Below are positions 11,543-48,895 of a stretch of 64,000 nt of DNA, one piece after another. Position numbers and translations under genes: made by a program. This stretch comes from Arthrobacter sp. B3I9 (lineage in GTDB: Bacteria; Actinomycetota; Actinomycetes; Actinomycetales; Micrococcaceae), in NCBI RefSeq assembly GCF_030816935.1, contig NZ_JAUSYO010000001.1:620001-684000 (forward strand). The letters run 5' to 3'. Positions within the stretch are counted from its first letter, which is position 1. The number at the start of each line of letters is the position of its first letter. Below the pieces are notes generated by a model. The model saw only the letters and a program-made list of their open reading frames with translations, searched no databases and was not told the origin of the DNA.

Positions 11543-12961
11543 GTGTCCCGCACTGTTCCAGCCCCGGTCCCGGAATCAGCCGGCCTCTTCCACCGCAGCT
11601 ACCTGCTGGTGACGCTCGGCGCCTGTGCCTTGGTGTTCCTCGCCGCCTTCGAGTCCATGGCGGTGACGACGATCATGCCGCTGGTCAGCCGTGAGCTGGG
11701 CGGAGCAGCGTTGTATGCGCTGGCTTTTGCCGGCCCTCTCGCCACCGGCGTCATCGGCATGGTGGCGGCGGGCAACTGGTCCGACCGGCACGGTCCGGCG
11801 GGTCCGCTGTTCGCGTCGGTGGCCCTGTTCGTGCTGGGCCTGGTGATCGCGGGAACGGCCGGAAGCATGGCCGCCCTGGTGGCCGGCCGGCTGGTGCAGG
11901 GCCTCGGCGGGGGTGCCATGACGGTTTCCCTCTACGTGGTTGTGGCCCGGGTATATCCGCAGGTGCTGCATCCGAAGATTTTCGCCGCATTTTCCGCTGC
12001 CTGGGTGATTCCCTCGCTTGTTGGCCCCTTCGCAGCCGGCCTGGTGGCTCAACTGGCGAGCTGGCATTGGGTTTTCCTGGGCGTGGTGGGGCTGGTGGTG
12101 CCGGCGCTGCTCATGATCGTGCCGGCAGTGCGCGGGCTGCGCGGCAGTCCGGAGCGGAAATCCCCGGAGCGGAAATCGCCGGAGCGGAAATCGCCGGAGC
12201 GGACCCGAAACGGGGAAGGGTACGTCCGGTTGGCTTGGGCTGCGCTGGCCGCGCTCGCCGTGCTGGGGCTGAATCTGTCCGTTGAATTGCCGGCCGGCGG
12301 TGGTGTGCTGGCGGCGGGTTCCGTGGCCGTGGCGCTCGTAGCCGTCCGCCCGCTCGTGCCCCGCGGAACCCTCATGGCCCGCCGCGGGCTTCCCAGCGTG
12401 ATCCTCACGCGCGGGCTGGCCTCGGCGGCGTTCTTCGGTACCGAGGTCTACCTGCCGTACCTGCTGGTGGAACGCTACATGTTCTCACCGACCTTCGCCG
12501 GCCTGACCCTTACGGCGGGAGCCCTCGCGTGGGCCGCCGCCTCCGGCGTCCAGGGCAGGCTGGGACCCCGCCTGATGGACCGCCGCGCCGTGCGGACCGG
12601 GGCAGGGATGGTGCTCGGCGCCGTCGTTCTTGCTCTGGTGACTACCGTGCTCGGCTGGCCTGCAGCCGTGCCGATCGCCGGCTGGGTGTTTGCCGGCGGG
12701 GGAATGGGGCTGATGTATCCGCGCCTGAGCGTGATGACCCTGGCCCTGTCCACCAAGGACACGGAGGGCTTCAACAGCTCGGCGATGTCCATTTCCGATT
12801 CCCTCGGGGGCGCACTGGCCCTGGCCGCCACGGCCATCGTCTTTGCCGCTTACCCGGGGACTGCAGGGTCCTTCGCCGGTGTTTTCACGCTCACCGCGGC
12901 CCTCGGGGTTGCCGCCCTCGTGGTCGCGCCGCGCGTGGCCAGGGCGCCGCGCGAAGGCTGA
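11543..12961 (+). CDS. MFS multidrug/drug-resistance-type transporter
   Basis: A 472-residue multi-helix exporter. AFESMAVTTIMPLVSREL in helix 1, the NWSDRHGPAG loop and GRLVQGLGGGAM are signatures of drug:proton antiporters. The central cytoplasmic loop contains SPERK repeated three times plus a partial fourth, encoded by a 15-bp tandem repeat at 12151-12203. The start is GTG 11543, 9 bases after the previous MFS stop. Substrate unknown; a role in export is inferred from the family. Confidence 0.85.
   Translation: MSRTVPAPVPESAGLFHRSYLLVTLGACALVFLAAFESMAVTTIMPLVSRELGGAALYALAFAGPLATGVIGMVAAGNWSDRHGPAGPLFASVALFVLGLVIAGTAGSMAALVAGRLVQGLGGGAMTVSLYVVVARVYPQVLHPKIFAAFSAAWVIPSLVGPFAAGLVAQLASWHWVFLGVVGLVVPALLMIVPAVRGLRGSPERKSPERKSPERKSPERTRNGEGYVRLAWAALAALAVLGLNLSVELPAGGGVLAAGSVAVALVAVRPLVPRGTLMARRGLPSVILTRGLASAAFFGTEVYLPYLLVERYMFSPTFAGLTLTAGALAWAAASGVQGRLGPRLMDRRAVRTGAGMVLGAVVLALVTTVLGWPAAVPIAGWVFAGGGMGLMYPRLSVMTLALSTKDTEGFNSSAMSISDSLGGALALAATAIVFAAYPGTAGSFAGVFTLTAALGVAALVVAPRVARAPREG
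12151..12203 (+). repeat. In-frame 15-bp tandem repeat (3.5 copies)
   Basis: Unit ggagcggaaatcgcc occurs at 12151 (one mismatch), 12166 and 12181, with a partial copy at 12196. It encodes charged SPERK units in the central loop of the MFS transporter. Because the unit is a multiple of three, slippage would change loop length without a frameshift. Confidence 0.95.
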
Positions 12962-14226: not shown

Positions 14227-14288
14227 CCCGGCCGGGTCAACGCCCGCCGGGCGCCCGCGGCACCTAGGACGCCGTCCCCACCCAGCTA

Positions 14289-14337
14289 GCTCGCACTTGA
14301 TGCCGTTTCGAGCCCTCAAACGGCATCAAGTGCGAGC
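14289..14337. repeat. Perfect 20-bp inverted repeat (palindrome C)
   Basis: The left arm gctcgcacttgatgccgttt (14289-14308) and an exactly complementary right arm (14318-14337) enclose a 9-base loop. The inner part (GCCGTTT-C-GAGCCCTCAAACGGC) closely matches the central hairpin of the interspersed element at 47613-47726. It may act as a terminator for the gene ending at 14226, or be a relict of the same repeat family. Confidence 0.9.
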
Positions 14338-14404
14338 GGGTTGGGGGGAGGCTGGAAACGAGAGGGCCGCCGCAGATGGTAGACTGGTGGAACTTGATGT
14401 GCAG

Positions 14405-14672: not shown

Positions 14673-16565
14673 ATGACTACTTTTGCTGCCCTCGGCACGC
14701 CCAAGGCCCTCGCCGACACCCTCACCGCCCAGGGGATCGAAACCCCGTTCCCCATCCAGGTCAAGACCCTTCCGGACACACTGGCAGGACGCGACGTCCT
14801 GGGCCGTGGCCGCACCGGCTCGGGCAAGACGATCGCTTTCGCCATCCCGCTTGTGGCACGACTCGCCGAGCGGGAAGCCAAGCACTTCCGCAAGCCCGGC
14901 CGCCCCATGGGCCTGGTCCTCGCCCCCACCCGCGAACTCGCCACGCAGATCAACGCCACCATTGAGCCGATGGCCAAGGCCATGGGGCTGAACACCACCG
15001 TGATTTACGGCGGCATCTCGCAGGCGCGCCAGGAAAAGGCCCTGCGCGCCGGCGTCGACATCGTCATCGCCTGCCCGGGCCGCCTGGAGGACCTGATCCG
15101 CCAGCGCATCCTGACCCTCGAAGCCGTCGAGATCACCGTCCTGGATGAGGCCGACCACATGGCCGACCTCGGCTTCCTGCCTGTGGTCAAGAAGCTCATG
15201 GACATGACCCCCAGCCAGGGCCAGCGCCTGCTGTTCTCCGCCACCCTGGACAACGGCGTGGACAAGATCGTCCAGCGCTACCTGTCCAACCCGCTGACGC
15301 ACTCCGTTGATGATCCGCAGGCCGCGGTGACCACCATGGAGCACCACGTGCTCGTGGTCAACGACCAGACCGTCAAGAAGCAGCTGATCGTCGAGCTTGC
15401 ATCCGGTGCCGGCCGCCGCGTGCTCTTCATGCGCACCAAGCACCACGCCCGCAAGCTGGCAAAGACCCTCACCGATGCGGGGATTCCCGCCGTCGACCTG
15501 CACGGCAACCTCTCGCAGAACGCCCGTGACCGCAACCTGGCCGAGTTCTCCTCCGGTGACGTCCGCGTCCTGGTGGCCACCGACGTCGCGGCCCGCGGCG
15601 TCCACGTCGACGACGTCGAACTGGTCATCCACGTGGATCCGCCCACGGAGCACAAGGCATACCTGCACCGCTCGGGCCGTACCGCCCGTGCCGGCTCCGA
15701 CGGCACCGTGGTCACGCTGACCCTGCCGGAGCAGCAGTCCGACGTCAAGAAGCTGATGAAGGCTGCCGGCGTCGAGGTCAACTTCGAGCGTGTCACCGCG
15801 AACTCCCCGCTGGTAGCCGAACTGGTCGGTGAAATGGCCGACAAGATCGATCCGCGCACCCGCGCCGCGCTGCTGGCGGCCAAGTCCAACCAGGGCGGCG
15901 GCACTTCCACCGGAGCCAACGCCGAGCGCAAGCGCGCCCGTCGCCAGGCCTCTCCCACCGCGGGTGGCCGTGGCGGCCGAGGCGGACGCGGACGTGTTGG
16001 AGCCGAGGCTCCCCGCACGGACCTGCCCCGTTCCGAGCGCCGCGCCGTGGCCTACGAAGGCCAGGCCGCAGCCCGCAACGCGGCAGACCGCGTCGCGGAG
16101 CAGAACCAGGACCGTGCCGACGCCGAGCGCGCTGCACGCCGCAACGCCCGCGGACGGACCACGGCCTACGCGCACCACAACGATGTTCCGGCCGCAGGCG
16201 GCCGCGCATCGGCCGGCCGCGGCTCGGATGGACGCACAGACTCACGCATTACCCGCAGCGACGCTCCCCGCGGAGGCACCGGACGCCCGGCTTCCTCCGG
16301 CGGACAGCGCGGCGGACGCCCGGCAACCGGCCAGCGCGCCGCCGCGGGCGCGGGTGCAGGCTCGCGTTCAGGCGGCGGACAGCGCTCCGCCGGCGCCGGT
16401 GCGGCCAGCGGCGGCAACAAGGCTGTCTGGTCCTCCAACACCGGCGGCACCTCGGGCGGATCGTACTCCGGCGGCGGCAACGGCCGCTCCGGCGAGGGCC
16501 GTCCGGCACGCAGCGGCCCCCGCCGCGCATCCGCTCCGGCGTCGAACGAACGCCGCAGCCGCTAA
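14673..16565 (+). CDS. DEAD-box ATP-dependent RNA helicase with long RG/Ala-rich tail
   Basis: Unwinds RNA duplexes with ATP; family members act in ribosome assembly, RNA decay and cold adaptation. Product of 630 residues. The Q motif (FPIQVKTLP), Walker A (GRTGSGKT), PTRELA, GG, TPGR-like CPGR, DEAD, SAT, RVLVATDVAARGVHVDD and HRSGRTARAG are all present within residues 1-370. The last about 230 residues are a basic, Gly/Arg/Ala-rich and probably disordered RNA-binding tail. ATG 14673 has only a weak GAAAG ahead of it. The long structured 5' leader with a terminator suggests regulation in cis. Confidence 0.95.
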   Translation: MTTFAALGTPKALADTLTAQGIETPFPIQVKTLPDTLAGRDVLGRGRTGSGKTIAFAIPLVARLAEREAKHFRKPGRPMGLVLAPTRELATQINATIEPMAKAMGLNTTVIYGGISQARQEKALRAGVDIVIACPGRLEDLIRQRILTLEAVEITVLDEADHMADLGFLPVVKKLMDMTPSQGQRLLFSATLDNGVDKIVQRYLSNPLTHSVDDPQAAVTTMEHHVLVVNDQTVKKQLIVELASGAGRRVLFMRTKHHARKLAKTLTDAGIPAVDLHGNLSQNARDRNLAEFSSGDVRVLVATDVAARGVHVDDVELVIHVDPPTEHKAYLHRSGRTARAGSDGTVVTLTLPEQQSDVKKLMKAAGVEVNFERVTANSPLVAELVGEMADKIDPRTRAALLAAKSNQGGGTSTGANAERKRARRQASPTAGGRGGRGGRGRVGAEAPRTDLPRSERRAVAYEGQAAARNAADRVAEQNQDRADAERAARRNARGRTTAYAHHNDVPAAGGRASAGRGSDGRTDSRITRSDAPRGGTGRPASSGGQRGGRPATGQRAAAGAGAGSRSGGGQRSAGAGAASGGNKAVWSSNTGGTSGGSYSGGGNGRSGEGRPARSGPRRASAPASNERRSR

Positions 16566-16582
16566 TCCCCAACCGCTCCCTA

Positions 16583-16622
16583 ACCTCGCAAGCTCGGTCA
16601 GGGAACCCGGCCGTCGTGGCCC
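16583..16622 (-). repeat. Inverted partial copy of the interspersed element arm
   Basis: This 40-base segment is an imperfect inverted copy of 16683-16722 inside element A (CCTCGCAAGCTCGG... against ...CCGAGCTTGCGAGG). With that copy it can form a long hairpin spanning 16583-16722. It is not found beside the second element at 47613-47726. Confidence 0.8.
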
Positions 16623-16634
16623 CAGCTTAACCAG

Positions 16635-16750
16635 CATCGATTGCTCCGTAACCGCCGTTTAGAAGGTTCATAACGGCGGTTTGGGCCCACGCCGGCAGGG
16701 TTCCCTGGCCGAGCTTGCGAGGCGAGGGGGCCGGTGGGGAGCAATCGATG
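16635..16750 (+). repeat. Interspersed palindromic element, copy A
   Basis: A 116-bp element bounded by a perfect 13-bp terminal inverted repeat (CATCGATTGCTCC, 16635-16647; complement at 16738-16750), with an inner inverted repeat AACCGCCGTTT / AACGGCGGTTT (about 16650-16682). It is nearly identical to the reverse complement of 47613-47726. With the partial inverted copy it fills the space between two convergent genes (stops at 16565 and 16757). No reading frame of note. It could serve as a bidirectional terminator. Confidence 0.9.
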
Positions 16751-16756
16751 GGGTTT

Positions 16757-17407
16757 TTACCAGCCGCGGGCGCGCCACTCTTCCAGGTGCGGGCGCTCGG
16801 CTCCGAGGGTGGTTGGCTTGCCGTGGCCCGGGTGCACCACCGTGTCGTCCGGATAGATCTCGAACAGCCGCTCGCTTACATCGGCGAGCAGCTGGGCGAA
16901 CCGTTCCGGATCCTTCTGGGTGTTGCCGACGCCGCCGGGGAACAGCGAGTCGCCGGAGAAGATGTGCGCCGGGCCGTCCGGGTCGCGGTACACGAGGGCA
17001 ATCGAACCCGGCGTGTGGCCGCGCAGGTGAACGGCCGTCAGGTCGAAGCCGTCGAAGTGGACGGCGTCGCCGTCGTTGACCAGCACATCCGCCGGCACCG
17101 GTAGCTCCGGGGCATCGTCCGTCCCGGCCGCCGTCTTCACGCCGGTGGCCTCCACAAGGCCCGGCAGCGCGCGGACGTGGTCCCAGTGCTGGTGGGTGGT
17201 GGCAACCAGCTCCAGCTTCGACGTCCCGGATGTATCGGCGGCGGCGTCCCCAAGCAGCCGCTGGATGGCGGCCAGGTCATCGGCCGCGTCGATCAGCAGC
17301 TGGGCGCCGGAGGCCTTGCCCGTGAGCAGATAAACGTTGTTGTCCATCTCGCTGACCGAGATCCGGCGGATGGTGATGTCACGTAGGTCGTAAATGAGCG
17401 AGTCCAT
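16757..17407 (-). CDS. MBL-fold metallo-hydrolase
   Basis: A 216-residue metallo-beta-lactamase-fold hydrolase. The metal site is visible as THQHWDH (about residues 91-97), LRGHTPGS, FSGDSLFPGG and VHPGHGKPT. This is the glyoxalase II-like branch, whose members hydrolyse thioesters or lactones; the substrate is not evident here. It starts at ATG 17407 and follows the aldo/keto reductase gene 21 bases downstream on the same strand, so it may share that transcript. The 3' side abuts palindromic element A. Confidence 0.9.
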   Translation of the reverse strand: MDSLIYDLRDITIRRISVSEMDNNVYLLTGKASGAQLLIDAADDLAAIQRLLGDAAADTSGTSKLELVATTHQHWDHVRALPGLVEATGVKTAAGTDDAPELPVPADVLVNDGDAVHFDGFDLTAVHLRGHTPGSIALVYRDPDGPAHIFSGDSLFPGGVGNTQKDPERFAQLLADVSERLFEIYPDDTVVHPGHGKPTTLGAERPHLEEWRARGW

Positions 17408-19345: not shown

Positions 19346-19441
19346 GACGGCTCCTGTGGCCAGTCTTGTCGCGTGCCGGGTACTGAACCGTCGTCCGGAG
19401 GCCGGGGGAGGAGGCCTTGGTCCTATGTTAACCCAGAAGGG

Positions 19442-29464: not shown

Positions 29465-30469
29465 ATGCGGACATCCGTACGACGCGCTGCTGGACGAACG
29501 AGGCTCCGAAGCTCCCGGTTGGCGCTTGTTCCTGCCGTCGTACTGGTTCTCGCGGGATGCGGGGAAGGGTCCGCTCCCCGGCCCGAGCGTCCCTTCGGCG
29601 CGGAGTCCGCGTCGCCCCCGGGCACTGCATCGGCCACGCTCCCGCCCCCGGGCACTGCATCGGCCACGCTCCCGCCGCAGAAGCCTGCGGCGCCCCGTGC
29701 GCGCACTCCGTCCCCCAACTCCGACCGCACTGCCGACGTGAGCCCGGTGGGCGACCTGCCCGGGTGGAAGCAAGTCTTCATGGAGGATTTCACCGCGGGC
29801 GACGTCCCGCTCGGCGCCTTCCCGGGGCCGTTGTACGAAGAGCGTTGGACTGAGGGTTACAAAGACGGCACGCCGGACACTGCACGGCAACTTTACGGCA
29901 CCAAAACGGGCTACTACCCAACCAAAGTGCTCAGCGTCCAAAACGGAATGTTGGACTGGTTCCTGCACTCCGAAAACGGGATCATTATGGGGGCAGCGCC
30001 CGCCCCCAAGTTTCCCAACGCCAGCATTAACCCGCCGCGCGCCAACAGCCTCCTTTACGGGCGATACTCCGTTCGCTACCGTGCTGACCCGATGCCCGGG
30101 TACAAGACGGCATGGCTCCTATGGCCTGACAGCGGCGTCTGGCCTCGGGACGGTGAAATCGACTTTCCCGAGGGTGATCTCTCCAGGATAATTTACGGCG
30201 CGTTTCACTTTGCTAGACCCGTTGATGCCTTCGCAAAATTTGACTCTGACCAGTCAGCAAGTTCGTGGCACGTCGCCACAACGGAGTGGAGCCCAGGGCG
30301 GGTTGAGTTTTTCCTTGACGGTCGGTCCCTCGGCGCAAGTACCACCGACGTGCCGTCGGCGCCTATGCACCTCGTCCTGCAGACCGAATCCTGCCTTACG
30401 GGATGCCCCGCCCCGGAAACCCAGGGCCACGTCTATCTGGACTGGATCAGTATCTGGGTGCCGGCCTAG
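29465..30469 (+). CDS. Glycoside hydrolase family 16 lipoprotein
   Basis: A 334-residue secreted beta-glucanase-like lipoprotein. The signal peptide ends in lipobox LAGC (Cys about 33). A Pro/Ala/Thr-rich linker follows, carrying a perfectly duplicated 10-residue unit (PPGTASATLP). The catalytic jelly roll has the family 16 motif EIDFPE, with nucleophile E231, D233 and acid/base E236. Divergent from the exopolysaccharide genes, so it may trim, release or remodel that polymer. Codon use in the C-terminal half looks less GC-rich than neighbours. ATG 29465 was chosen to begin the signal peptide; an upstream frame to 29375 exists. Confidence 0.88.
   Translation: MRTSVRRAAGRTRLRSSRLALVPAVVLVLAGCGEGSAPRPERPFGAESASPPGTASATLPPPGTASATLPPQKPAAPRARTPSPNSDRTADVSPVGDLPGWKQVFMEDFTAGDVPLGAFPGPLYEERWTEGYKDGTPDTARQLYGTKTGYYPTKVLSVQNGMLDWFLHSENGIIMGAAPAPKFPNASINPPRANSLLYGRYSVRYRADPMPGYKTAWLLWPDSGVWPRDGEIDFPEGDLSRIIYGAFHFARPVDAFAKFDSDQSASSWHVATTEWSPGRVEFFLDGRSLGASTTDVPSAPMHLVLQTESCLTGCPAPETQGHVYLDWISIWVPA
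29614..29673 (+). repeat. Perfect 30-bp tandem duplication in GH16 linker
   Basis: Two identical 30-base copies (29614-29643 and 29644-29673) encode the linker unit PPGTASATLP twice. The unit length keeps frame. Confidence 0.95.
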
Positions 30470-39399: not shown

Positions 39400-40239
39400 C
39401 TACGGCAGCAGGGATTCCTGGATCACGTTGCCCGTACCCACCACGGCATAGCAGTCCACCCGGCGGTCGCCCTTTTCCCAGCTGGGGGAGCTCGGATAAG
39501 CGAGCTTGTAACTGAGGTCGTAGTCGCCGGCCTTGGCCACCAGGGGAGCGGCCTTGCAGGCATCGCGGGCCCGCTGCTTCAGTGCGTCCCGGCCCGGGTA
39601 GGCGTCCGCGGCGGCGTACTGCTCGACGGCGACAAGCTGGGCTGAGTGGCCTGTGCCGCAGTCCACCACGGTCGACTGCGGCGCGTCGGGGTCAAAGTCC
39701 TCAAGGCAATCGCCCAACCGGAAATCCAGCGGGGCGACGTCTTTGAGCGGAAGCGGTCCCCGGCCGGCGGGAGCCGACGGTGAGGTTGCCGCCGCGCGCG
39801 AGCTGTCCGCTTCTGACGATTTGGGGCCGCCCAGCGTGGAGGCAAGCAACCAGACGAGAAGCCCGACGACGACGAGCACGACTGCCGCCGCTCCCATCCG
39901 TGGGAGCCGCTGCTGCCGGACCCACCGGCCCAGCCTGGCGGCGTTCGCCGACACCTGCTTCGTTGCGCGGGCCACTGCGGTGCTCGCGGCGGCCGGGGCG
40001 GCCGGAGTCGCGGGCGGGACGGTCGGCTCAACGGGCGGTGCAGCCGGAGTCGCGGGCGGGACGGTCGGCTCAACGGGCGGTGCAGCCGGAGTCGCGGGCG
40101 GGACGATCGGCGTCGCTGAGGTGGGCGGCGTCGACGGCTTGGGCGGAACGGCCACGGGCGTGGACAGCCCTCCGGCACCTCCGGCAGGGGGAACTCCAGG
40201 CGTGCCGGCAGTGCCGGGCCTTGCGTTCTCTTCGGTCAC
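39400..40239 (-). CDS. Septum-formation-domain membrane protein with Pro-rich repeats
   Basis: A 279-residue protein with a cytoplasmic Pro/Ala/Thr/Val-rich N-terminus (about residues 1-110), one transmembrane helix (MGAAAVVLVVVGLLVWLLAS, about 131-150) and an extracytoplasmic domain of the actinobacterial septum-formation family: FRLGDCLEDFDPD, VVDCGTGHSAQLVAVEQY, YPGRDALKQRARDAC and DRRVDCYAVV, with four Cys likely forming disulfides. The N-terminus includes a 14-residue unit (PTVPPATPAAPPVE) encoded by a 42-bp tandem repeat. GTG 40239 is the likely start. Role in division is a family-based inference. Confidence 0.75.
   Translation of the reverse strand: MTEENARPGTAGTPGVPPAGGAGGLSTPVAVPPKPSTPPTSATPIVPPATPAAPPVEPTVPPATPAAPPVEPTVPPATPAAPAAASTAVARATKQVSANAARLGRWVRQQRLPRMGAAAVVLVVVGLLVWLLASTLGGPKSSEADSSRAAATSPSAPAGRGPLPLKDVAPLDFRLGDCLEDFDPDAPQSTVVDCGTGHSAQLVAVEQYAAADAYPGRDALKQRARDACKAAPLVAKAGDYDLSYKLAYPSSPSWEKGDRRVDCYAVVGTGNVIQESLLP
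40001..40110 (-). repeat. 42-bp tandem repeat (about 2.6 copies)
   Basis: Copies begin at 40001, 40043 and 40085 (partial, one difference near the end). They encode the Pro-rich units of the septum-formation-domain protein. The unit preserves frame. Confidence 0.95.
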
Positions 40240-46809: not shown

Positions 46810-47607
46810 ATGACCAAGCGCACGGGCTTTTCTGAGGGCGAGGTCTGCTGGACGGACCTGCAGACCGGCGACGTAGAGGCAGCCAAGGCCTTCTATGCCG
46901 AAGTCTTCGGCTGGCGGTACGAGGACCTGCCGACGCCGGACGGCCGCAGCTACGCCCAGGCTTTCCTCGGTGACGACCTGGTGAGCGTCATCGCGCCGCA
47001 GAACCCGCAGCAGCAAGCCGCCGGAGCCCCCGGCCAATGGAACGTGTACTTCGCAACCGACGACGCGCGTGACCTTGCCGACAGCCTCACCCACTCGAAC
47101 GGCACACTGGAGTTCGGTCCCGAGGCCGTGGGCGACACGGGCGTGATGGTCTTCTTCGCCCCGCCCGGCGGTGGCACCACCGGTTCCTGGGAGGCGGGGA
47201 CCCACTTCGGGACCGCCCGGACCGAGGAGCCCGGGGCCCTGACCTGGGCGGAGCTGCTCACCCCGGAACCGCAGGCCGCCGTCGGATTCTTCCAGCAGCT
47301 GTTCCGCCATGAGGTCACCGAATACCCGCAGGACGACGGCGGGAGCTACACCACGCTGATGGTGGACGGCGCCGAGGTGGCCGGCATCGCCACGGTGCCC
47401 TCCGACGCCGAAGGAACCCTTACGCCCGGCTGGCAGGTGTACTTCGGCGTCGCCAGCGTCGCGGGCGCGGTGGCGGCGGCGGTGGCCGCGGGCGGCGTCG
47501 TGCTGATCGAACCCGACGAGGCCGAGGGAGGCGAGGCCGAGGAAGCCGGCACCATCGCCACGCTCCAAGACCCGCAGGGCGGCGTGTTCAGCGTGCTCGA
47601 GGTCTAA
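46810..47607 (+). CDS. VOC (glyoxalase/bleomycin-resistance fold) protein, two domains
   Basis: A 265-residue protein with two vicinal-oxygen-chelate domains: GEVCWTDLQTGDVEAAKAFYAEVFGWRYEDL (about 8-38) and ALTWAELLTPEPQAAVGFFQQLFRHEV (about 143-169). Metal ligands cannot be fixed with confidence. Members of this group are often annotated as glyoxalase-like hydrolases of unknown role in Streptomyces and Arthrobacter. The GGAAGGAA site precedes ATG 46810. The 3' side abuts palindromic element B. Confidence 0.9.
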   Translation: MTKRTGFSEGEVCWTDLQTGDVEAAKAFYAEVFGWRYEDLPTPDGRSYAQAFLGDDLVSVIAPQNPQQQAAGAPGQWNVYFATDDARDLADSLTHSNGTLEFGPEAVGDTGVMVFFAPPGGGTTGSWEAGTHFGTARTEEPGALTWAELLTPEPQAAVGFFQQLFRHEVTEYPQDDGGSYTTLMVDGAEVAGIATVPSDAEGTLTPGWQVYFGVASVAGAVAAAVAAGGVVLIEPDEAEGGEAEEAGTIATLQDPQGGVFSVLEV

Positions 47608-47612
47608 ACCAA

Positions 47613-47726
47613 ATCGAGTGCTCCCCGCCGGCCCCCTCGCCTCGCAAGCTCGGCCAGGGAACCCTGCCGGCGTGGGCCCAAACTGCCGTTATGAGGGCTC
47701 AAAACGGCCGTTACGGAGCACTCGAT
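47613..47726 (-). repeat. Interspersed palindromic element, copy B
   Basis: A 114-bp element with a perfect 12-bp terminal inverted repeat (ATCGAGTGCTCC, 47613-47624; complement 47715-47726) and a central hairpin AACTGCCGTT/AACGGCCGTT (9 of 10 paired). Its reverse complement is nearly identical to copy A at 16635-16750. It fills almost the whole 124-base space between convergent genes (stops at 47607 and 47732). Confidence 0.9.
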
Positions 47727-47731
47727 GGGGG

Positions 47732-48895
47732 TTAGGCGTAGGCGTTGACCAGGCGGACGGCGCCGCCGTCGACGCCCTTGGCGCCCTGTACGTAGTCCGG
47801 GCCGGTCTTGAGGATCGCGTCGGAGTTTTCCTCCACCGTTCCCATGATCCAGGCGGGCAGGCCGCGGTCGTTCAGGCGGTTCACCGCGGCGTCGGCGACG
47901 TCGGCGGAGACGATCGCCACCATGCCCACGCCCAGGTTCAGCGTGCGCTCGAGGTCGGCCAGGGGTACGTTGCCGAGCTCGGCGACGAGCTTGAAGATGG
48001 CCGGCAGTTCCCAGGTGGCGCGGTCGACCGTGGCGACCAGGCCCTGGGGCAGGACGCGCGCCAGGTTGGCGGCAAGCCCGCCGCCGGTGACGTGGCTGAA
48101 GCCGTGGACGCCGTGGGCCGAGTTCACCGGGAAGGTGCGGGCCAGGTCCAGGCAGTCGGCGGCGTAGACGCGGGTCGGTTCCAGGAGTTCCTCGCCGAGG
48201 GTACGGCCGAGTTCGGAGACCTGGCGGTCGAGGGCCCAGCCGGCGTGGTTAATCACGCGGCGGACCAGGGAGTAGCCGTTGGAGTGCAGGCCGGAGGATG
48301 CCATGCCGATCACCACGTCGCCGGCGCGGACGCGGTCCGGGCCCAGCAGTTGGTCCGCCTCGATCACGCCGGTGGCGGCGCCCGCGACGTCGTACTCGTG
48401 CTCGCCCAGCAGGCCCGGGTGTTCGGCCGTTTCGCCGCCCACGAGGGCGGTTCCGGCGACCGAGCAGGCGGCCGCGATGCCGCGGACAATGTCCGCAATG
48501 CGCTCGGGCACCACCTTGCCGCAGGCGATGTAGTCGGTCATGTAGAGCGGTTCGGCGCCAACCACGACGATGTCGTCCACCACCATGCCGACGAGGTCGA
48601 ACCCGATGGTGTCGTGGATGTCCATGGCCTGCGCGATGGCCACCTTGGTGCCGACGCCGTCGGTGCTGGTGGCCAGCAGCGGGCGCTTGTAGGTGAGCAG
48701 CTTCGAGACATCGTAGAGGCCCGCGAAGCCGCCGACGCCGCCGATCACCGAGGCGTTGTGCGTCGCCTTGACCGCGCCCTTCATGAGTTCGACGGCGCGG
48801 TCGCCGGCTTCGACGTCGACGCCCGCGGAGGCATACGTGATCCCGGCGGAGTTCTGGGCAGCGTTCATGTCAGCGGCCGGTGAGGCGGAAGTCAT
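47732..48895 (-). CDS. purM: Phosphoribosylformylglycinamidine cyclo-ligase (AIR synthetase)
   Basis: Fifth step of de novo purine synthesis: ATP-dependent ring closure of FGAM to AIR. Full-length at 387 residues; YASAGVDVEAGDRAVELMK, VIGGVGGFAGLYD, ATSTDGVGTKVAIAQ, GMVVDDIVVVGAEPLYMTDYIACGK, GGETAEHPG and FSHVTGGGLAANL match PurM throughout. ATG 48895 overlaps the purF stop by 4 bases (ATGA). The first about 20 residues are extra; translation may start at the second Met (MNAAQNSAG). Confidence 0.97.
   Translation of the reverse strand: MTSASPAADMNAAQNSAGITYASAGVDVEAGDRAVELMKGAVKATHNASVIGGVGGFAGLYDVSKLLTYKRPLLATSTDGVGTKVAIAQAMDIHDTIGFDLVGMVVDDIVVVGAEPLYMTDYIACGKVVPERIADIVRGIAAACSVAGTALVGGETAEHPGLLGEHEYDVAGAATGVIEADQLLGPDRVRAGDVVIGMASSGLHSNGYSLVRRVINHAGWALDRQVSELGRTLGEELLEPTRVYAADCLDLARTFPVNSAHGVHGFSHVTGGGLAANLARVLPQGLVATVDRATWELPAIFKLVAELGNVPLADLERTLNLGVGMVAIVSADVADAAVNRLNDRGLPAWIMGTVEENSDAILKTGPDYVQGAKGVDGGAVRLVNAYA

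Follow-up and report, generated by a model that had tools for sequence, protein, structure and literature searches.

The intergenic elements studied here belong to a dispersed family of near-perfect palindromes of nearly constant length, 62 bp, which lie at gene ends and whose stems differ from one lineage to the next. We give a probability of about 0.5 to the reading in which this 62-mer is a portable, symmetric 3′-end element, acting as a putative bidirectional terminator without U-tract, or as a mark of the RNA 3′ boundary. The 62-mer would then be REP-like, spreading or being homogenised inside each lineage and coming to rest beside stop codons. Transcripts coming from either side would fold into an identical long hairpin, which may end transcription in spite of the missing U-tract, or else mark the 3′ boundary of the RNA. 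The two copies A and B described below would be palindromes of this kind with a second REP-like repeat, called II, inserted in one arm.

Composition of the window copies and of the family

The window (the whole stretch of DNA analysed, 64,000 nt) corresponds to bases 620001-684000 of a 4.12-Mb single-contig genome, called here the source genome. Its features are listed in Table 1; flanking genes, and all placement classes used below, were obtained with a home-made gene caller, whose stops are surer than its starts. Copies A and B had been described in an earlier note on this DNA as nearly identical, and they indeed share 105 of 116 bases without gaps (91% over 115 bp in the genome search), copy B spanning 47612-47727. 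As also stated there, their perfect terminal inverted repeats differ from one copy to the other, with matched arms in each (ATCGATTGCTCC/GGAGCAATCGAT in copy A, ATCGAGTGCTCC/GGAGCACTCGAT in copy B). Both fold better than shuffled sequences (z of −5.45 for A and −4.26 for B, 0 of 200 shuffles being as good). The element of about 115 bp proposed at the time is a real repeat, but its true unit is a 62-bp palindrome, which repeat II, 58 bp long, interrupts. Likewise, the copies do occupy convergent gaps, between stops 16565 and 16757 for A, and 47607 and 47732 for B, but copy A does not fill its gap alone, as an inverted II (16566-16624), 85% complementary over 59 nt to the one inside copy A, is also found there. 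Counting palindromes of 62 bp along the window, with resampled sequence as reference, was neutral for the case, because such a count is blind to these elements: interruption hides the composites, and the third member has another length, 61 bp.

Table 1. Members of the family, repeat II and flanking genes in the window
Feature	Position	Strand	Remark
Copy A, composite	16635..16750	+	62-bp-type palindrome split by repeat II
Copy A, left arm, apical core and inner right arm	16635..16682	+	
Copy A, inserted repeat II	16683..16740	+	58 bp
Copy A, outer right arm of palindrome	16741..16750	+	
Second repeat II in the gap of copy A	16566..16624	-	opposite in orientation to the II inside copy A
Copy B, composite	47612..47727	-	layout of copy A on the minus strand
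Copy B, left arm, apical core and inner right arm	47680..47727	-	
Copy B, inserted repeat II	47622..47679	-	58 bp
Copy B, outer right arm of palindrome	47612..47621	-	
Third member, 61-bp palindrome	14283..14343	.	sister subfamily; stem CAGCTAGCTCGCA..., core GCCGTTTCGA
DEAD-box helicase gene	14673..16565	+	flank of A; end 69 nt before copy A
Metallo-beta-lactamase superfamily protein gene	16757..17407	-	flank of A; stop 6 nt from copy A
Glyoxalase-domain protein gene	46810..47607	+	flank of B; stop 4 nt from copy B
AIR synthase family (purM-like) gene	47732..48895	-	flank of B; stop 4 nt from copy B

Other features of the window were recorded in passing. A Guanidine-III riboswitch (RF01763, 51 bits) is placed at 19355-19420 (-), directly upstream of two small multidrug resistance genes (PF00893; 19022-19345 and 18624-19019, (-)). 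Tandem repeats consist of three 42-bp copies (39990-40115), an exact 30-bp duplication (29613-29672) and 15-bp spaced copies (12149-12203).

The base unit of the family is a near-perfect palindrome of 62 bp, with 29 pairs around a 4-nt loop, organised as CATCGATTGCTCC-GTAACNGCCNTTNTGA-loop-TCANAANGGCNGTTAC-GGAGCAATCGATG; the consensus of its apical core is GYCNTTNTGA-N4-TCANAANGRC. The dispersed nature of the repeat, which the earlier note had made depend on further copies, was borne out both in the source genome and in its relatives: a whole-genome search of the former gave 21 solo palindromes, each of exactly 62 bp, and 7 composites, A and B included, in which one arm harbours II. Weaker matches of covariance model R1, together with a search for the apical core, revealed a sister subfamily of 26 palindromes in this genome, of which 20 measure exactly 62 bp; core and length are common, and the outer stem is different (CAACTGRCTSGCAG...). 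On average, the folds of the two subfamilies have energies of −39 and −32 kcal/mol. The consensus is paired out to both ends (CATCG...CGATG or CAAC...GTTG), with no terminal GTAG or CGTC tag. In a scan of the window against Rfam no match above gathering score was found at the elements, and the only matches seen at elements (8 loci) were sub-threshold ones to microRNA hairpin models.

Several local arrangements were noticed among these copies. The outer end of the sister subfamily, CAACT(GA/AG/AA), supplies a stop codon, and in several sister copies (e.g. 310410, 1469973, 1724077 and 1891442) the called end of the adjacent gene falls 7 nt within the element. Three 62-mers are clustered within 1.5 kb of the source genome, at 3981766, 3982823 and 3983210 (L017, L044 and L049), the first of them 4 nt past the end of a purL-like gene. 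A DnaA-box-like TTATCCACA adjoins the middle one, and flanks similar loci such as L087 as well.

Repeat II is a hairpin repeat unrelated to the palindrome, and is also found on its own in the source genome. Among 22 composites compared, the II parts are 94% identical, and the palindrome parts 74% (13 of the 22, those with comparable spacing), solo copies being 78% and 81% identical. The left segment of the composites varies from 33 to 38 nt, and the right junction is constant. At the site orthologous to that of copy B (slot B), II is found in one arm in genomes G000 and G002, and in the opposite arm in G014 and G019. At slot A, the composite of the source genome has its loop and flanking arm in common with the plain 62-mer of G015. 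II thus seems to have entered resident palindromes several times, at one stem position and in either arm. A single origin of the composite was also considered, and is disfavoured by the diverse palindrome parts, the varying left segment and the use of both arms at slot B. The 62-mer is in this respect a natural target for a second, non-coding repeat. In one composite (L268, genome G006) the opposite arm bears a mirrored end of II (CCCCACCG), which results in longer pairing. Repeat II also amplifies in tandem, as judged from relative G010, where its matches come in runs spaced by 56-58 bp (C1:3679489-3679940; 2287264-2287668).

At E ≤ 0.01, R1 found matches in all 101 same-genus genomes, some of which, with few or weak matches, may carry the sister type alone. 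At E ≤ 1e-6, 38 of 197 genomes of the family, in 14 of 32 sampled genera, matched R1. The order was scanned at the same threshold with a second model, R2, built from 58 sequences (E-values of such home-made models are rough), and 23 of 297 genomes, in 11 of 94 genera, were positive, including 12 genomes from 7 other families. Twelve loci of these other families were fetched: 10 measure 61-64 bp and 11 are convergent; the exact core GTCGTTNTGA is present in only 5, and the remaining loci may be look-alike hairpins. In two genomes of genus g46, all 16 fetched copies are 62 bp long and variants of a single stem (CATCGAGATGRCAGAAACTGCCC), keeping in mind that they were picked as good R2 hits, and that R2 itself contains three g46 sequences. 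To judge from these comparisons, lineages have their own stems on one geometry. A scan with an exact pattern, which was too strict, matched one named record, Pseudarthrobacter sulfonivorans.

A Pfam search for the RAYT transposase (PF01797) gave no hit in the source genome; a single one of the 101 same-genus genomes was positive, and so were 5 of 14 control genomes. Mobilisation by a RAYT is therefore unsupported, PF01797 being the sole transposase family searched. Genome G032 (L297, L298) has the sole Y1 transposase genes among the 101 same-genus genomes. The way in which either repeat is copied is, like termination or 3′-end formation, something that we infer. The question posed is how one length is kept, and the sequence rewritten, in a repeat with no known transposase.

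Paired changes and orthologous slots

Among 41 copies of the source genome, from both subfamilies, 21 of 29 pairs have changed on both sides and 86.2% of cells are paired. The covariation score is 0.446, compared to 0.199 for shuffles and at most 0.104 for slid controls. With the set of 58 genus and family sequences, these values rise to 26 of 29 pairs and 92.5%, but this set is biased, since it consists of the best-scoring copies of a model already holding these pairs. The changes seen at orthologous sites are stronger evidence, because there a single locus is followed by descent. In eight orthologous 62-mers that lie downstream of purL in four genera, 15 of 29 pairs have changed on both sides and 91.4% of cells are paired, the outermost pairs 1-62 and 3-60 being mostly unpaired; at slot B, nine orthologues have 10 of 29 pairs changed on both sides and 88.5% paired cells.

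The earlier note expected stem positions to covary among copies. This holds for most columns, but pairing is missing from columns 23-40 in 12 of the 41 copies and from columns 26-37 in 19, and these columns vary largely independently, which counts against a uniform selection on pairing. Its further proposal, that paired changes imply selection on folding, goes beyond what such changes alone can prove. Selection on the transcript fold would be expected to leave more G-U than A-C pairs on the transcribed strand of tandem copies. In tandem copies, G-U was counted 41 times and A-C 58 times on that strand (binomial p 0.11), and in convergent copies 44 and 51 times. The lack of G-U excess indicates that symmetry is kept at the DNA level, for two-way use, or by templated mutation. 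Moreover, because stem types are lineage-wide, part of the paired changes may reflect replacement of the whole element. Since element replacement or templated correction could produce them, paired changes alone do not prove selection on RNA folding.

One such process may be at work here. In quasi-palindrome correction, slippage between the arms during replication lets one arm serve as template for the other. A purely mutational origin of the paired changes, by arm-to-arm copying of this sort or by overwriting from sister copies, is possible though not probable. It would account for the near-perfect arms and the lineage-wide stem types, and mismatched intermediates do exist, as in slot B of G020 (ATTGC versus GCACT); it leaves the near-constant length, the placement at gene ends and the conserved core unexplained. 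It can act alongside any other reading.

For each of slots A and B, the gaps of 25 same-genus genomes were inspected by eye. At slot A, the composite is present in 1 genome (the source genome), a plain 62-mer in 5, and another strong hairpin in 13; the remaining gaps hold another repeat array (1), are convergent and hairpin-less (2), or have a different neighbour gene (3). The two hairpin-less cases, G008 and G023, where the convergent gap is 0-8 nt, were counted against a terminator role. At slot B, the composite is found in 4 genomes, a plain 62-mer in 9 and another strong hairpin in 8, two gaps being decayed or shortened and two unreadable; in two of the plain cases (G016 and G021), the neighbour is a plus-strand gene 385-428 nt away, not a convergent one. 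Among the other hairpins, at least five (G001, G007 and G016 at slot A, G008 and G023 at slot B) have A- and T-run flanks, as read by eye, and would by this feature resemble bidirectional intrinsic terminators.

The purL sample consisted of 70 of the 118 matching genomes, in which the purL stop was parsed in 55 and unparsed in 15. A strong hairpin lies within 50 nt of the stop in 42 of the 55 parsed genomes, and a recognisable member of the family was seen by eye in 11 of the 70 (doubtful cases G210, G141 and G145 uncounted). Eight of these members are 62 bp long and form the alignment used above, from which G132 and G203 (72-74 bp) and G166 (61 bp) were left out. The 62-mer therefore shares its slots with other hairpins, and this occupation of their place is the best argument for a role at 3′ ends.

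Placement at gene ends and alternative readings

Of 54 copies in the source genome, 53 were classified (row 634283, the window copy at 14283, was left out for its wrong offset): 25 are in convergent, 25 in tandem and 3 in divergent gaps. The 59 gaps of the window taken for comparison divide into 12 convergent, 36 tandem and 11 divergent ones (Fisher test, p 0.0045 for convergent, 0.047 for divergent). In relatives, the 55 best-scoring copies comprise 28 convergent, 27 tandem and no divergent ones. The nearer stop is at a median of 5 nt from convergent copies, and 20 of the 25 tandem copies of the source genome are closer to the upstream stop than to the downstream start. The family is thus found at gene ends. 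The next start codon is nevertheless no more than 25 nt away in 8 of these 25 tandem copies, and in 7 of 27 in relatives, an awkward position for a terminator, which was counted against this role.

The bidirectional terminator suggested by the earlier note is consistent with this placement, with the convergent excess, and with slots shared with ordinary-looking bidirectional terminators; the fact that about half of the copies are tandem agrees less well with it, as does the lack of T-rich tail (at least 5 T in 10 nt) in 73 of 75 outlets. Both exceptions are composites; 45 of the 75 outlets begin with GG. A canonical intrinsic terminator, made of a GC-rich hairpin and a T-run, is contradicted for most copies by this count of tails, and the terminator scan predicted none at the elements. 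Another recurrent hairpin type (ACGACGGCGG...CCGCCGTCGT), which may be the ordinary terminator of the genome, adjoins some copies (L029, L158 and L008). At L029 and L158, this strong neighbour could be the real terminator, and it was counted against a role of the 62-mer.

How do other readings compare? That these are ordinary intrinsic terminators, alike by chance, is barely credible: strong hairpins at gene ends are what it predicts, but it conflicts with the missing tails and the empty terminator scans, and with a sequence common to dozens of copies. A selfish or neutral REP-like repeat, whose copying machinery would require a set hairpin geometry and whose copies are merely tolerated at gene ends, appears rather unlikely, even though much can be said for it. 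The length is nearly constant and the apical core is kept while the stem changes lineage by lineage, the g46 copies, R2 best hits, all have a variant of the same genus-specific stem, A-C is not outnumbered by G-U, and repeat II shows that such elements insert. The near absence of PF01797 reported above weighs against it, within the limits of that search, and both the sharing of slots with strong hairpins and the persistence downstream of purL in four genera suggest that a hairpin is required at this position. Lower still in probability, we place a site acting at the DNA level, where convergent transcription piles up supercoils, and which would be bound by a dimeric protein, gyrase or a nucleoid protein, or be extruded as a cruciform. 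E. coli BIMEs, which bind gyrase, offer a parallel. Symmetry of both strands with no wobble preference, the conserved apical core and the convergent enrichment are in keeping with such a site, but its outer stem is freely replaced, which is not the case of an ordinary binding site, and the many tandem copies do not fit.

The reading as a portable 3′-end element may be extended, tentatively, to palindromes of about 62 bp beyond one bacterial family, which would be U-less bidirectional terminators in high-GC actinobacteria. Their stems would be rewritten in each lineage with geometry and core frozen, as if a factor read hairpin length and core, and II might have evolved to insert at one stem position of either arm without breaking the stem. 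Natural swaps at the same gene pair, with an A/T-flanked hairpin in one genome and a U-less 62-mer in its relative, provide matched pairs for a direct test.

Comparison with known systems

No description of a 62-bp palindrome family of this kind was found in the open-licence literature. The EFAR repeats of Enterococcus faecalis are dispersed stem-loops, proposed to be bidirectional terminators. They belong to another phylum and are longer, and by this general description they are set apart from the 62-mers, with which, to our knowledge, they have no sequence in common. The RepRanger catalogue, as far as its available text goes, scans Arthrobacter livingstonensis for palindromic elements, so that automated counts for Arthrobacter are in print; a family, consensus or function for the genus was not found in that text (PMC12306157).

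REPs of the GTAG/CGTC type are, according to the sections available of their description (PMC3733652), short multi-copy palindromes of 20-40 bp, located for the most part in gaps of convergent or unidirectional genes, in many cases closer than 20 bp to a stop codon, and carrying on one side a GTAG or CGTC tag that stays unpaired. Only the GTAG repeats are tied to RAYTs there, CGTC REPs having no dedicated transposase, and Actinobacteria are not among the hosts named in these sections. The 62-mers are similarly multi-copy palindromes placed mostly at gene 3′ ends and, like CGTC REPs, have no RAYT, as far as the PF01797 search goes. Unlike GTAG/CGTC REPs as portrayed in the same text (PMC3733652), they are longer, symmetric to both ends and tag-less.

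A further parallel is offered by the I-shaped, or U-less, terminators of mycobacteria, presented in the text available of PMC12288462 as hairpins without a U-tail, at most about 50 bp from the stop. Whether actinobacterial RNA polymerase stops without a U-tract is disputed, a title cited in that text stating that the mycobacterial polymerase requires one (PMC12288462), and the 62-mers bear on this dispute. They are strong hairpins with no U-tail, close to stop codons, in a high-GC actinobacterium, as I-shaped terminators are on that account; however, I-shaped terminators are defined there by their shape (PMC12288462), whereas the 62-mers form a repeat family that shares its sequence.
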